This document shows, piece after piece, positions 6,293-55,975 of a stretch of 57,094 nt of DNA (position 1 is its first letter; every line of letters starts with the position of its first letter). A model generated the notes under the pieces. The model was not told where the DNA came from, made no database searches, and saw only the letters and a list, made by a program, of their open reading frames with translations. Made by a program: the position numbers and the translations under genes. This stretch comes from Gammaproteobacteria bacterium (lineage in GTDB: Bacteria > Pseudomonadota > Gammaproteobacteria > Ga0077554 > Ga007554): contig JAKFXX010000022.1 in the NCBI GenBank assembly GCA_021731145.1, positions 1 through 57,094 on the forward strand, read 5' to 3'.

Positions 6293-6439
6293 TTAGAACC
6301 TGTTCACGATCTTGATCAAGGGATGCAGTGCAAGGCAAAATCGAACGAAAAAGCGGAGCATACACGAAGTATGTGAGCATTTTGAGTTCGATTTTAACGC
6401 CGCAATGCGCCCTTCAGCGAGATCGTGAACAGGTTCTTA
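6293..6439. repeat. 141-bp palindromic MITE-like element, copy 1, with TTA direct repeats
   Basis: The body (6296-6436) starts GAACCTGTTCACGATC and ends GATCGTGAACAGGTTC, so its termini are inverted repeats; the interior also folds back (AAAATCGAAC with GTTCGATTTT, CATAC with GTATG). It is flanked on both sides by TTA (6293-6295 and 6437-6439), which looks like a 3-bp target-site duplication. A second copy of exactly the same length lies at 48799-48939. The right-hand TTA is, on the minus strand, the TAA stop codon of bfd. No transposase is encoded, so it would be non-autonomous. Confidence 0.8.
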
Positions 6440-6631
6440 GGCGGCCATCTCCTGATCGCCTGCAATTTCGGCAAGAGCTTGGTTGAGGCAGGTCCGTGCG
6501 CAGGTGGCGCAGCGCCCGCACTGGGTGGCCACCTTTAGTTCGTCGCGCAGCCCGCGCATAGTACAGGCGCCATGCTCCACGGCGTTTTGGATATCGCTTT
6601 CGGTTACGGCATGGCAAAGGCAGATGTACAT
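6437..6631 (-). CDS. bfd: Bacterioferritin-associated ferredoxin
   Basis: A 64-aa protein, the same length as E. coli Bfd, with the [2Fe-2S] ligands at the canonical positions Cys4, Cys6, Cys38 and Cys41 (MYICLC ... QCGRCATC). Bfd binds bacterioferritin and donates electrons to release stored iron under iron starvation. A perfect TTGACA promoter with an overlapping Fur-type box lies just upstream (6664-6699), matching the known iron repression of bfd. No bacterioferritin gene is in the window. The stop codon is supplied by the flanking base triplet of the palindromic element. Confidence 0.95.
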   Translation of the reverse strand: MYICLCHAVTESDIQNAVEHGACTMRGLRDELKVATQCGRCATCARTCLNQALAEIAGDQEMAA

Positions 6632-46367: not shown

Positions 46368-47704
46368 GCGGTCACCTTCAACACTGCACTGGTGAATACA
46401 TCGCCACGCTCTTCATATCCGCTAAACATGTCGAAACTTGCGCAGGCCGGTGACAACAGCACGACATCGCCCGGTTGCGCAAGATGACGTGCCTGGGCCA
46501 CGGCGTCCTCCATGCTGGCCGCATGCACCACTGGCGTCACGCCGCCCAACGCGGCTTCGATGAGCGGCGCGTCGCGCCCGATCAACACCACGGCGCGCGC
46601 CTTGTCCGCAGCTGCCTGGCGCAACGGTGTAAAATCCGCTCCTTTGCCCAGTCCACCGGCAATCAGCACCACCCTGCCCGGCATACCTTGTAATGCGGCG
46701 AGCGTGGCGCCGACGTTGGTCCCCTTCGAATCGTTGTACCAGGCCACACCCTCTTTCTCGGCTACCCACTGACTGCGGTGCGGCAGGCCCGGGAATTCAC
46801 GCAGGGTTTGCAACATTGCCGCCATCGGCAAGCCCATGACATCACCCAAGGCCAATGCCGCCAGGGCATTGGCGACATTGTGCATGCCCTTGATGCGCAC
46901 CTCGGCCACCGGCATCAGCGGTTCGCTATCCCGCGCCAGCCAGGGCCCATGCACCCGCTGCATAATTCCGAAGTCATTAAATTCCGGCTCACCCAGATCA
47001 AAGCGCACCGTGCGCCTGCCCGTCTGCGCCATGCCCATCACTACAGGATCATCAATATTGAGCACCATCACGCCGTCGCCGTGAAAAATGCGCTGCTTGG
47101 CAGCAGCGTATTCATCCATGCTTTGATAACGATCCATATGATCAACACTGATATTGAGCACTGTCGCCGCCGCAGCATTGAGCGAGGACGTGGTCTCTAG
47201 CTGAAAACTGGACAGCTCCAGCACATACAGATCCGGCTCAGTGGCGCCAATCAGATCAAGCGCGGGCATACCAAGATTACCGCCGACGCGCACATTGCGA
47301 CCAGCGCGTACGGCCATCTCGCCCACCAGCGTGGTCACGGTGCTCTTGCCGTTCGAACCGGTGATCGCCACCACAGGCGCGGCGGCATGGCGCACAAACA
47401 ATTCGATATCACCTAGCACCGGCACACCGCGCCCCATGGCCTGGACAATCAGCGGCTCGCGTAGCGACACGCCGGGGCTCACCACCAATTGCTGTGCGGC
47501 GGCAAAGGCGGCGGGGTCAAAACCGCCAATAAAGACCGCCATGCCCGGAAACTCCTGTTCCAGGGCGGCCAATCCCGGCGGGAAATCGCGACTGTCGGTC
47601 ACCGCCACCGGCACCCCGCGCGCAGCGAGAAAACGCGCACAGGACAGGCCGGTCTTGCCCAGACCAACGATCAATGTATTGAGTTTTACCTCATTCATGC
47701 TCAT
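46364..47704 (-). CDS. murD: UDP-N-acetylmuramoylalanine--D-glutamate ligase
   Basis: A 446-aa Mur ligase. ATG 47704 overlaps the mraY stop by 4 nt (ATGA), which decides the start over a longer frame to 47788. '[21 protein letters not shown]', ATP loop '[17 protein letters not shown]', '[12 protein letters not shown]', '[17 protein letters not shown]'. It adds D-Glu. Confidence 0.97.
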
Positions 47705-48783
47705 CGTATCTTCAACGAACTCAAGCCAACCAGCACCAGGATCACGGTAATTATCCAGAAGCGCACGATGACGCGCGGTTCCGGCCAACCCTTCAATTCA
47801 TAATGATGATGCAGCGGCGCCATGCGGAAGATGCGTTGGCCGGTGAGTTTGTATGAACCCACTTGCAGCATCACCGACACCGCCTCCATCACGAACACCC
47901 CGCCCATGACGAGCAACACCAGCTCCTGACGCACCACCACCGCGACCACGCCAAGCGCCGCGCCGAGGGCGAGGGCGCCGACATCGCCCATGAACACCTG
48001 CGCCGGATAGGTGTTGAACCACAAAAAACCCAGGCCCGCCCCGACTATTGCGCCGCAAAACACCGCCACCTCGCCTACACCTGCGACATAGGGGATGCTG
48101 AGGTAAGGTGCGAATTTGGCATGCCCCGCGACATAGGCAAATACCGCCAGCGCCCCCGCCACCAGAACGGTGGGCATGATCGCCAAACCGTCCAGGCCAT
48201 CGGTCAGATTAACCGCGTTGCTGGTGCCGACGATCACGAAATAGGTGAGCAGGATGAACACCACCCCCAGCTCGATGGAGGCATGCTTGAGGAACGGTAT
48301 CAGCAGATCGGTTTCGGCCGGGGTTGCCGCGTAGTGATAGATGAACACCGCAGCGCCCAACCCCACCACCGACTGCCAGAAATACTTGGCACGCGCCGAC
48401 AGGCCCTTGGAGTTGCGCAGCACCAGTTTTTTATAGTCATCCACCCAGCCGATCACCCCAAACAGTAGTGTAACGATCAGCACCAGCCAAACATGGCGAT
48501 TGCCCAAATCACCCCACAGCAGGGTGCTCAACGCAATCGCCACCAGGATCAACGCACCGCCCATGGTTGGCGTGCCGGCCTTGGTCAGATGGGTCTGAGG
48601 ACCATCGTCGCGCACGCTCTGCCCCACCTTGTACATGGTCAACTTGCGGATCATCGCCGGCCCCACCAGCAGCGAAATCGCCAGCGCAGTGAGCGCACCC
48701 AGCACGACGCGCAGCGTCAGGTACTGGAACACACCGAAGCCGGTGTGGAACTGGGACAGATATTTGAAAAAATAAAGCAGCAT
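47701..48783 (-). CDS. mraY: Phospho-N-acetylmuramoyl-pentapeptide transferase MraY
   Basis: A 360-aa membrane enzyme with about ten helices. Catalytic Asp pairs are in '[10 protein letters not shown]' and '[16 protein letters not shown]', plus '[13 protein letters not shown]' and the His motif '[14 protein letters not shown]'. It makes lipid I on undecaprenyl phosphate. Unlike its neighbours it does not overlap the gene before it: a 164-bp gap holds the palindromic element. Confidence 0.97.
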
Positions 48784-48795
48784 TTAATTGGCCTT

Positions 48796-48942
48796 TAAGA
48801 ACCTGTTCAAAATCTCGATCAAGGGATGCAGCGCAAGGCGGAAACGGGCGAAAAAGCGGAGTGTACTTGTAGTACATGAGCATTTTGAGCCCGTTTCCAA
48901 CGCCGCGATGCGCCCTTCAGCGAGATATTGAACAGGTTCTAA
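48796..48942. repeat. 141-bp palindromic MITE-like element, copy 2, with TAA direct repeats
   Basis: The body (48799-48939) is gaplessly alignable to copy 1 at 6296-6436 in the same orientation. It starts GAACCTGTTCAAAATCT and ends AGATATTGAACAGGTTC, flanked by TAA on each side (48796-48798 and 48940-48942). Internal stems GAAACGGGC/GCCCGTTTC and TGTAC/GTACA replace different but equally paired bases in copy 1, while GAAAAAGCGGAG and GAGCATTTTGAG are unchanged. It lies between murF and mraY and is transcribed with them. Confidence 0.82.
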
Positions 48943-48947
48943 TGAAA

Positions 48948-50306
48948 TCACGCCTTTTCCACCAAAGCATCAACCACTCGCTCCATGCGCATGAACCGTG
49001 ATCCTTTCACCAGCACTGTCGTCCCTGGCGCCAGATCCGTCAGCAGCGCGGCTATCAATTCATCGTGGCTGGCACAGTGCCGCCCGTTCGCACCAAACTC
49101 CCGCACCGCGCCCACGCTGAGTTCCCCGGTGGCATAGAGGCGGCCTATACCGGCCTGCCTCGCTTGCGCGCCCACTTGCTCATGGAACAGCGGCGCATCA
49201 TCACCCAGCTCGCCCATATCGCCCAGCACCAGCACCTTTTCGCCCTCAACGGTGGCCAGCACAGCAATCGCCGCCTGCACTGACGGCGGGTTCGCATTGT
49301 AGGTGTCGTCTATGATACGCGTGCCATGTATACCCTTTTTAACCTGCAAGCGCCCTTTGACCGCGCGCATCGCCTCCAGCCCCGCCTTAATGTCGGCAAG
49401 CGTAGCGCCCGCTGCCAATGACGCGGCACTCGCCGCCAGGGCGTTCATCACGTTGTGCATGCCCATCAGAGGCAACACCACAGAGGCATCACCGGCAGGC
49501 GTGTGCATATGAAAAGAAGTTGTAATGGCGGTATCGTCCACCTCGCATCGCACGCTCTCCGCTGCCGCGTAGACATCCGCTGAATTACTCATGCCGAAAG
49601 TCATGCAGCGGCGTCCGCCCAGCAGGGTGCGCCAAAACCCGGCATAGACATCATCGGCATTCACTATGCCAATGCCGTTTTCATCCAGCCCTGCGTAGAT
49701 TCCGCCCTTGGTATGCGCGATTTCATCCAGACTACCAAAACCTCCGATATGGGCCATGGCAGCGTTGGTAATCAGCGCCACAGTGGGCCGTGCCAGATTG
49801 CTTAGATAGGCGATCTCGCCAGGATGATTGGCGCCCATTTCGATCACCGCGCAACGGTGCTCATCGCGCAGGCGCAACAGCGTCAAAGGCACACCGATGT
49901 CATTGTTCAAATTGCCCTGGGTCGCCAGCACCGGCCCACGTCGCGCCAGTATCGCGGCGAGCATCTCCTTGGTGGTGGTCTTGCCGTTGCTGCCAGTGAC
50001 TGCAACCAGCGGCATGGCGAAGCGCACACGCCATGCCGCAGCCAACTGGCCTAACGCCAGGCGGGTATCCGCCACGCGCAGGGTAGGCAAAGCAGACTCA
50101 ATAGGCGTGCTGACCAGCGCCGCCACCGCGCCACGGACAGCGGCCTCCGCCACAAAGGCATGACCATCAAAATTCTCGCCGCACAGCGCAACAAATAGAT
50201 CCCCTTGCTGCAAGGTGCGGGTATCGGTGTTCACTGCCGCGAACGCCACATCCTCGCCATGCAGCTCGGCACCCAACGCCTTGGCTGCTTCGGACAACGT
50301 CATCAT
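48948..50306 (-). CDS. murF: UDP-MurNAc-tripeptide--D-alanyl-D-alanine ligase
   Basis: A 452-aa Mur ligase: 'GDLFVALCGENFDGHAFV', ATP loop 'VTGSNGKTTTKEMLAAIL', 'EMGANHPGEIAYLSNLARP', 'IDDTYNANPPSVQAAI', 'VLGDMGELGDDA'. It adds D-Ala-D-Ala. Its start overlaps the murE stop by 4 nt (ATGATGA). Confidence 0.97.
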   Translation of the reverse strand: MMTLSEAAKALGAELHGEDVAFAAVNTDTRTLQQGDLFVALCGENFDGHAFVAEAAVRGAVAALVSTPIESALPTLRVADTRLALGQLAAAWRVRFAMPLVAVTGSNGKTTTKEMLAAILARRGPVLATQGNLNNDIGVPLTLLRLRDEHRCAVIEMGANHPGEIAYLSNLARPTVALITNAAMAHIGGFGSLDEIAHTKGGIYAGLDENGIGIVNADDVYAGFWRTLLGGRRCMTFGMSNSADVYAAAESVRCEVDDTAITTSFHMHTPAGDASVVLPLMGMHNVMNALAASAASLAAGATLADIKAGLEAMRAVKGRLQVKKGIHGTRIIDDTYNANPPSVQAAIAVLATVEGEKVLVLGDMGELGDDAPLFHEQVGAQARQAGIGRLYATGELSVGAVREFGANGRHCASHDELIAALLTDLAPGTTVLVKGSRFMRMERVVDALVEKA

Positions 50307-55438: not shown

Positions 55439-55626
55439 GAAAAAAACACCACGGAAATGGATAAATTCCTGCTTTGTGGACAGTGACTTAGCGCAACAAC
55501 ACGGGAATTGGAAGCAGGCAGGGACAAGAAGGGGAGCAAGCGGCAATCAAATCAAAAAGTTGGAGCGGATGATTACAGCAAAACATTAAGAGTGGGGCGG
55601 GGTCAGCATGTAGAACCAAGAAATAA
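55439..55626. other. Intergenic region between the dcw promoter and rnpB
   Basis: A 188-bp stretch with no recognisable gene. The end next to rnpB is T-rich on the minus strand (TTTATTTCTTGG right after the RNA), as expected for its 3' end, but no clean terminator hairpin beyond the rnpB P1 stem is seen. Confidence 0.4.
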
Positions 55627-55975
55627 AGGAGTCGGCCTATAAGCCGGGTTCTGTCGTGGACAGCCATTCATCTGGGATGTGCGTCACCGCACACCTCAAG
55701 CAACCTACCCGGGAACAGTGCGGGCCGCACCATCGTCCCCCTATTTGGTCTTGCTCCGGGCGGGGTTTTCCCTGCCACGGCTGTTGCCAGCCGCGCGGTG
55801 CGCTCTTACCGCACCATTTCAACCTTACCTGCCTCTTGCGAGACATCGGCGGTATATTTTCTGTGGCACTTTCCGTAGACTCGCGCCTCCCAGGCGTTAC
55901 CTGGCGCCCTGCCCTGTGGAGCCCGGACTTTCCTCCATACCCTCGCGGGTACCGCGGCTGTCTGGCCAACTCCAC
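55627..55975 (-). ncRNA. rnpB: RNase P RNA, bacterial class A
   Basis: On the minus strand the RNA runs from about 55975 to 55627. The P1 stem pairs GGAGTTGGCC (55973-55964) with GGCCGACTCC (55637-55628). Then come the universally conserved 'GAGGAAAGTCCGGGCTCC' and 'GGGCAGGGCGCCAGGTAACG', the mid-molecule 'AGAGCGCACCGCG', 'GACCAAATAGGGGGACGA', and the 3' 'AGAACCCGGCTTATAGGCC'. About 349 nt, close to other gammaproteobacterial rnpB. It is the catalytic part of RNase P, which trims tRNA 5' ends. ORFs overlapping it are spurious. Confidence 0.96.

Follow-up and report, generated by a model that had tools for sequence, protein, structure and literature searches.

A stretch of 57,094 nucleotides from a gammaproteobacterial genome (hereafter the window) contains two copies of a 141-bp palindrome, and this locus raises the question of what such elements are, how they came to their sites and whether it is a fold or only a sequence that is kept in them. 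The bodies of copy 1 (6296-6436) and copy 2 (48799-48939) are each exactly 141 bp long and align without gaps, with 117 of 141 positions identical. Among the 24 differing positions, 20 form 10 base pairs that are altered on both sides, and 9 of these 10 pairs stay Watson-Crick, the last one going from G-C to A.A. The remaining four differences are a U.G pair that became C-G and three changes in the apical loop. The two ungapped copies and their compensatory stem changes, on which the original prediction was built, are thus confirmed. The folding energies of the two copies (-75.4 and -79.4 kcal/mol) correspond to z-scores of -11.8 and -9.9 against dinucleotide shuffles, and the fold is far better than that of shuffles whichever strand is considered. 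A protein-coding core was ruled out: the apical and stem changes keep pairing and not codons, and length changes of 1 bp and 23 bp would disrupt a reading frame. An intrinsic terminator was also rejected as improbable, since copy 2 sits within the gap between mraY and murF. The element had no match among the curated covariance models of Rfam, whose sole match in the window was an ordinary bacterial RNase P class A RNA (55624-55973, minus strand), and six related loci searched up to an E-value of 5 gave no match to it either. A literature query with words of the core sequence returned unrelated papers only.

Copy 1 lies between two TTA triplets (6293-6295 and 6437-6439). The right one is also the stop codon of a minus-strand ORF of 64 amino acids (6437-6631), which we take, by eye, to resemble a bacterioferritin-associated ferredoxin (bfd-like). 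The left terminal inverted repeat, GAACCTGTTCACGATCT (6296-6312, plus strand), belongs to the end type that we call class A; its counterpart is at 6420-6436 (minus strand), and its pattern was matched 16 times forward and 16 times in reverse in the window's own genome. Both repeats enclose the hairpin core module (6313-6419, plus strand), and nearly the same 107-bp core is found in own-genome copies with TACTGTGTCACAAAG ends. Within the plus strand of this module, the 5' internal-loop motif AAGGC (6332-6336), conserved in our first copy set (A1) and in most ERIC repeats, precedes the 5' arm AAAATCGAAC (6337-6346) of a covarying stem. This arm pairs with the 3' arm GTTCGATTTT (6386-6395), and across 43 copies 9 of the 10 pairs of the stem show two-sided changes. 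Inside the stem, the conserved GAAAAAGCGGAG (6347-6358) and TGAGCATTTTGA (6374-6385, on the 3' side of the core loops) flank the apical hairpin CATAC-ACGAA-GTATG (6359-6373), two pairs of which covary and whose closing G.U is invariant in 43 of 43 copies as well as in 10 of 10 ERICs. The 3' internal-loop motif AACGC (6396-6400) follows the stem. GAAAAAGCGGAG is near-invariant in A1, an invariance that is partly by construction as this first set was picked by the exact motif, which also served as search key; in the sets picked by a model (A3 and A4), the motif is slightly relaxed compared with A1. The covariation of the stem is independent of this key.

Copy 2 (plus strand) is a complete element between mraY (47701-48783) on one side and murF (48948-50306) on the other, both on the minus strand. 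Its upper hairpin, from AAGGC to AACGC (48835-48903, plus strand), lies within a 100.8-bit match (48826-48913) of our covariance model R1, and TAA triplets flank its body at 48796-48798 and 48940-48942. In both window copies, the strand reading GGAG is antisense to the neighbouring genes.

Both copies were inserted with duplication of their TTA or TAA target, since precise empty sites exist in related genomes for each of them. The mraY-murF junction is intact in three genomes of the same genus (G005-G007), where the two flanks of copy 2 overlap by exactly the 3-bp TAA. For copy 1, the empty site was found in one of these genomes (G007), which has a single TTA at CCGTTTATTAGGCGGCG: it reads CCGTTTATTA followed directly by GGCGGCG, at the place where the window reads CCGTTTGTTA, the element and then TTAGGCGGCC. 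The flanking repeats had been predicted to be target duplications, and this they are. The occupancy of element sites varies among genomes of this genus.

The window holds only a small part of the family. Both copies first described are real, but the own genome of 2.89 Mb contains about 30 according to DNA similarity, and R1 likewise gives 30 at E <= 1. The core, which has the form AAGGC-stem-GAAAAAGCGGAG-hairpin-TGAGCATTTTGAG-stem-AACGC, is conserved whatever the ends. Other genomes, from many Proteobacteria and from Alistipes/Rikenellaceae, contain its exact pattern in at least 119 stretches. In the class, 274 genomes were sampled and R1 matched 101 of them at E <= 1e-5; at the same threshold it matched 27 of the 198 genomes in the phylum of a Bacteroidota genome. 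At a permissive threshold (E <= 10), 50-72 matches were obtained within single genomes. Two contigs of IMG/VR also carry the core.

Several variants accompany these copies. An insert of about 23 bp, CCTCGGTACCCCCTTGAGGGGTG, lies between the stem and AACGC in several own-genome copies (L018, L020, L021, L022 and L023) whose stems differ, and some ERICs (L190, L219) have an insert at a similar position. In two Alistipes loci (L044, L057), a different and longer conserved tail (TTTTGCCGTCAGAAGGCATTAGATACAACGCTCGGCGAA...) comes after the core, and a related tail occurs in a third (L065), as if core and tail were a portion of a larger composite element. A shorter repeat with a 69-nt match, near-identical at two places of the own genome (G000:C15:2483-2551 and G000:C8:57727-57795; L186 and L187), is scored lower by R1 (36.9 and 34.7 bits); its loops have diverged and it could be another branch.

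Then, we compared the ends. Three end types (AGAACCTGTTCACGATCT, TACTGTGTCACAAAG and a CCTCT-type) enclose the same core of about 107 bp in the own genome, and further types surround it in other genomes. With end classes assigned by best match to typed consensus ends, class A, to which the window copies belong, shows a 3-bp TNA duplication in 20 of 24 copies, class B a TA duplication in palindromic targets (7 of 11), class C a duplication mostly of 4 bp and class D a TA duplication (13 of 27). Some Halomonas copies have a CTAA duplication, and no consistent target duplication was found for the Alistipes copies. Class D is also represented on the Pseudomonas aeruginosa plasmid RW109, by a 172-bp element with a TA duplication (L304:2503-2674). 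Because the same core is found within several kinds of ends with differing target duplications, it is more than a site that a single transposase recognises. The converse case exists in the same genome, where class C ends also surround a different palindrome with a TCATTCCCGCGAAGGCGGGAAT core. This palindrome of about 130 bp (L025:2911-3041, contig C4) has the GGGCACCTCTAAAAATTC ends of class C copies, and both of its strands fold equally well.

A full-length transposon with the ends of the element, which the original prediction had suggested looking for, exists outside the own genome. The sequence TTAGAACCTGTTCACGATCT was matched over 20 of 20 positions in Xanthomonas plasmids, adjoining an IS5-family transposase. 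The corresponding element (L302) is 849 bp long, has GAACCTGTTCACGATCT at both ends (17/17 each against class A) and a TTA duplication, and its two ORFs match DUF4096 and DDE_Tnp_1. A similar element of 873 bp in Moraxella has ends of 16/17 and 15/17 against class A and a TTA or TAA duplication. Closer to the window, a genome of the same family (G008) has an 865-bp element with GAACCTATTCAATATCTT ends (14/17 each against class A) and a TAA duplication; its transposase is 77% identical to that of Xanthomonas, and type A copies are found elsewhere in the same genome. Class D has a partner in Mesorhizobium, a 1518-bp element with DUF772, DDE_Tnp_1 and a TA duplication. A Sulfitobacter candidate for class C matches at one end only, and class B ends gave no partner match in plasmids or phages. 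The hairpin core is absent from the four insertion sequences examined, so that the interior of the element does not derive from these four. A search of the window's own genome gave no IS5-family partner with class A ends, and the single DDE_Tnp_1 gene of this genome was rejected as mobiliser, its flanks matching none of the end classes tried. Judging from the shared ends, IS5-family insertion sequences with class A ends are likely the mobilisers of the window's class. The reading as a MITE-like mobile element is therefore supported both by the empty sites and by the match of inverted repeats and target duplications to these IS5-family elements. As of 2007, mobilisation of such repeats by a transposase had no experimental support (PMC2229807).

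We then investigated what is kept in the core. In the stem alignment of 43 diverse copies, 97.9% of the cells are paired and 122 two-sided changes were counted, where shuffles gave 29 and slid controls 7-19; this supports the proposed selection for the fold. The conserved unpaired loops are the most conserved part across phyla. Strand-symmetric mutation is expected to turn Watson-Crick pairs into G.U and A.C equally often at any composition. From 122 distinct versions of the 10-bp variable stem, however, mismatches were 67 G.U versus 15 A.C. This excess persisted after thinning of relatives at 85% identity (36:6), 75% (20:5) and 65% (7:1; P = 0.07), and the ratios set by set were 29:1, 11:2, 3:0 and, more weakly, 24:12 in the genome_contigs set. 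Purine-purine mismatches (G.A/A.G) also outnumbered C.U/U.C (26:9). According to crude ORF-based gene calls, G.U exceeds A.C by 21:2 in copies antisense to both neighbours and by 12:4 in sense copies, and because the polarity is present in antisense copies as well, selection on the neighbouring mRNA was rejected as its origin. In 95% of 171 copies, the predicted fold of the GGAG strand is the more stable of the two strands; the mean advantage is 9.4 kcal/mol and is partly supplied by the shared conserved loops. This strand folds better in all 28 Alistipes copies and all 10 ERICs, while a control palindrome shows no difference between strands. Given the G.U excess over A.C, antisense copies included, we conclude that selection preserves one single strand in its folded form, and does so irrespective of where a copy has landed. 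This strand is likely RNA.

The reading that we favour, with a probability of about 0.68, is that of a non-autonomous palindromic transposon (MITE) of an ERIC-like superfamily, whose end and core modules are separable and in which the fold of one strand is kept. The outer module would be the pair of terminal inverted repeats, on which a DDE transposase acts in trans by cut and paste, and for the window class (GAACCTGTTCACGATCT, TNA target) the enzyme would be of the IS5-family, DUF4096 plus DDE_Tnp_1 type. In the hairpin that forms the inner module, the non-Watson-Crick loops (two tandem G.A sites and the invariant G.U) would be fixed, and the stems would change freely but co-vary. Since it persists through changes of ends, this core would be maintained for a reason other than recognition by one transposase. 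What is kept would be the fold of the specific strand GGAG...UGA, most simply as an RNA hairpin, which by analogy with ERIC in Yersinia may act as a processing or stability element in transcripts. A structured RNA and a hairpin-recognised mobile element had been posed as alternatives; the data suggest both, in separable modules. A bolder proposal, which we hold only tentatively, makes the core a unit of selection of its own. It would be a functional hairpin of RNA or ssDNA, itself mobile, that spreads across two phyla by taking on the ends of different resident transposons, with ERIC as its enterobacterial branch, and the fold of one strand would serve its own propagation and not adjacent genes.

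Two other explanations bear on the hairpin itself. The copies could be an ordinary IS5-family MITE whose palindrome is a functionless passenger, the paired changes being produced by hairpin-templated (quasi-palindrome) correction, with one arm serving as template for the other at replication. Such correction produces two-sided changes in a single event without any selection, and the inverted repeats and target duplications agree with IS5-family mobilisation. Yet it would also wipe out the unpaired loops, which are the best conserved part, and it predicts no strand polarity, contrary to the G.U and purine-purine excesses reported above; moreover, one and the same core is found with different ends. 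We therefore regard this explanation as quite unlikely. The folded strand could instead be ssDNA that is extruded when the lagging strand is made or during transfer; a protein of the host or of the element would bind it and help the element to spread. The polarity would fit, as it belongs to the element itself and does not depend on transcription nearby, and tandem G.A and G.T pairs can form in DNA too. However, the 2-4 bp duplications specific to each class of inverted repeat indicate double-strand DDE transposition and no protein partner could be found for the core, so that a one-strand ssDNA is, in our opinion, unlikely.

Another possibility is a function for the host, in which an mRNA hairpin tunes the stability or termination of adjacent genes and the copies are kept for this benefit. 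Orientation-dependent effects of ERIC on Yersinia mRNA, as described in the parts of PMC2229807 and PMC10969869 that report De Gregorio 2005, are in its favour. The copies, moreover, sit between genes and use divergent gaps least. Nevertheless, both window copies are antisense to their neighbours, the polarity is unchanged in antisense copies and the occupancy of sites differs between genomes of the same genus. There is also no preference in orientation relative to genes (29 ++ vs. 34 --), which counts against a cis-acting role in host mRNA because such a role predicts one. A host-level function thus appears very unlikely, and the mobile element with separable ends and core remains our preferred reading.

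Although ERIC repeats have been used for decades in typing, their movement and the reason for their fold remain open questions. Here, the same core appears to belong to a far wider superfamily, and in several lineages the ends match identifiable insertion sequences, which gives a concrete pair of enzyme and substrate. As core and ends are separable, experiments on each module are possible. If the core truly functions as RNA or ssDNA and lasts longer than the vehicle that carries it, it would be an unusual kind of mobile module.

Several known systems resemble this element. REPIN/RAYT systems, too, consist of hairpin repeats between genes, and the transposase that spreads them is encoded at another locus, but the hairpin element has terminal inverted repeats and DDE-type target duplications. 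IS5-family insertion sequences (DUF4096 plus DDE_Tnp_1) have in common with class A an identical 17-bp terminal inverted repeat and a 3-bp TTA/TAA duplication; unlike the element, they are 849-873 bp long, carry a transposase and have no hairpin core. In Streptococcus pneumoniae, RUP is likewise a small palindrome whose ends match the resident IS630-Spn1 (PMC2229807), but a single end type is reported for it, unlike in the hairpin family. A further repeat in Salmonella and E. coli (L310:373-461, Salmonella, in the dnaN-recF gap; L311:379-460; L312:300-340, E. coli, in the rlmKL-ycbX gap) carries the GGAG..TGAG core with other flanks, scoring 44.9 and 35.9 bits in Salmonella; we suppose that this third enterobacterial repeat may be the RU-3 of Delihas.

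The closest relatives are ERIC/IRU/RU-1 of enterobacteria and Vibrionaceae, which like the window element are intergenic palindromes (about 127-149 bp) without a gene. Both share the order AAGGC ... GGAG-[YnTAC..GTAnR]-TGA ... AACGC, the invariant closing G.U and the better-folding strand, and the apical motif of the core is identical to the one in the ERIC primers. The apical GAG-stem-TGA and its flanking AAGGC and AACGC are collinear in cross-searches both ways. The match of R1 to an E. coli ERIC is collinear but weak (14.7 bits, E 0.19, rank 2 in 40 kb), and a chance-like match inside gpmA outscores it. As this scoring was not decisive, the reverse search was run with a model built from 10 ERICs only (R2). 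Over 712 kb, of which the hairpin elements make up an estimated 1%, R2 gave 5 matches at E <= 10, and ranks 1-3 (E 0.0032, 0.14 and 0.24) are hairpin elements aligned at AAGGC, GAA/UGAG and GGAG...UGA, and in ranks 2 and 3 also at AACGC. The match at rank 4 (L113) covers a short apical stretch with a similar sequence, and only a few hairpin elements reach E < 1. A Salmonella ERIC (L216) and class C copies also have GGCAAGGCGG and CCAACGCCGCCAT in common. In contrast, ERIC has a CCCCAG/CTGGGG stem between the loop motifs and inserts at TA, while the window class has GAAAAAGC/GCATTTTGA in place of this stem, its own GAACCTGTTC ends and a TNA target; TA targets are found in classes B and D only. 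The hosts of the hairpin element also lie outside the recorded range of ERIC, which is given as confined to Enterobacteriaceae and Vibrionaceae (PMC10969869, 2024). The original view that no named family has this core therefore has to be revised, since ERIC/IRU share the architecture of the core. Because a model built from ERICs alone picks out hairpin elements and the invariant G.U is common to both, we assign them to one superfamily, our confidence in this being moderate to high, and ERIC appears to be one of its branches; as its inner stem, ends and target differ from those of ERIC, the window element is not called an ERIC.
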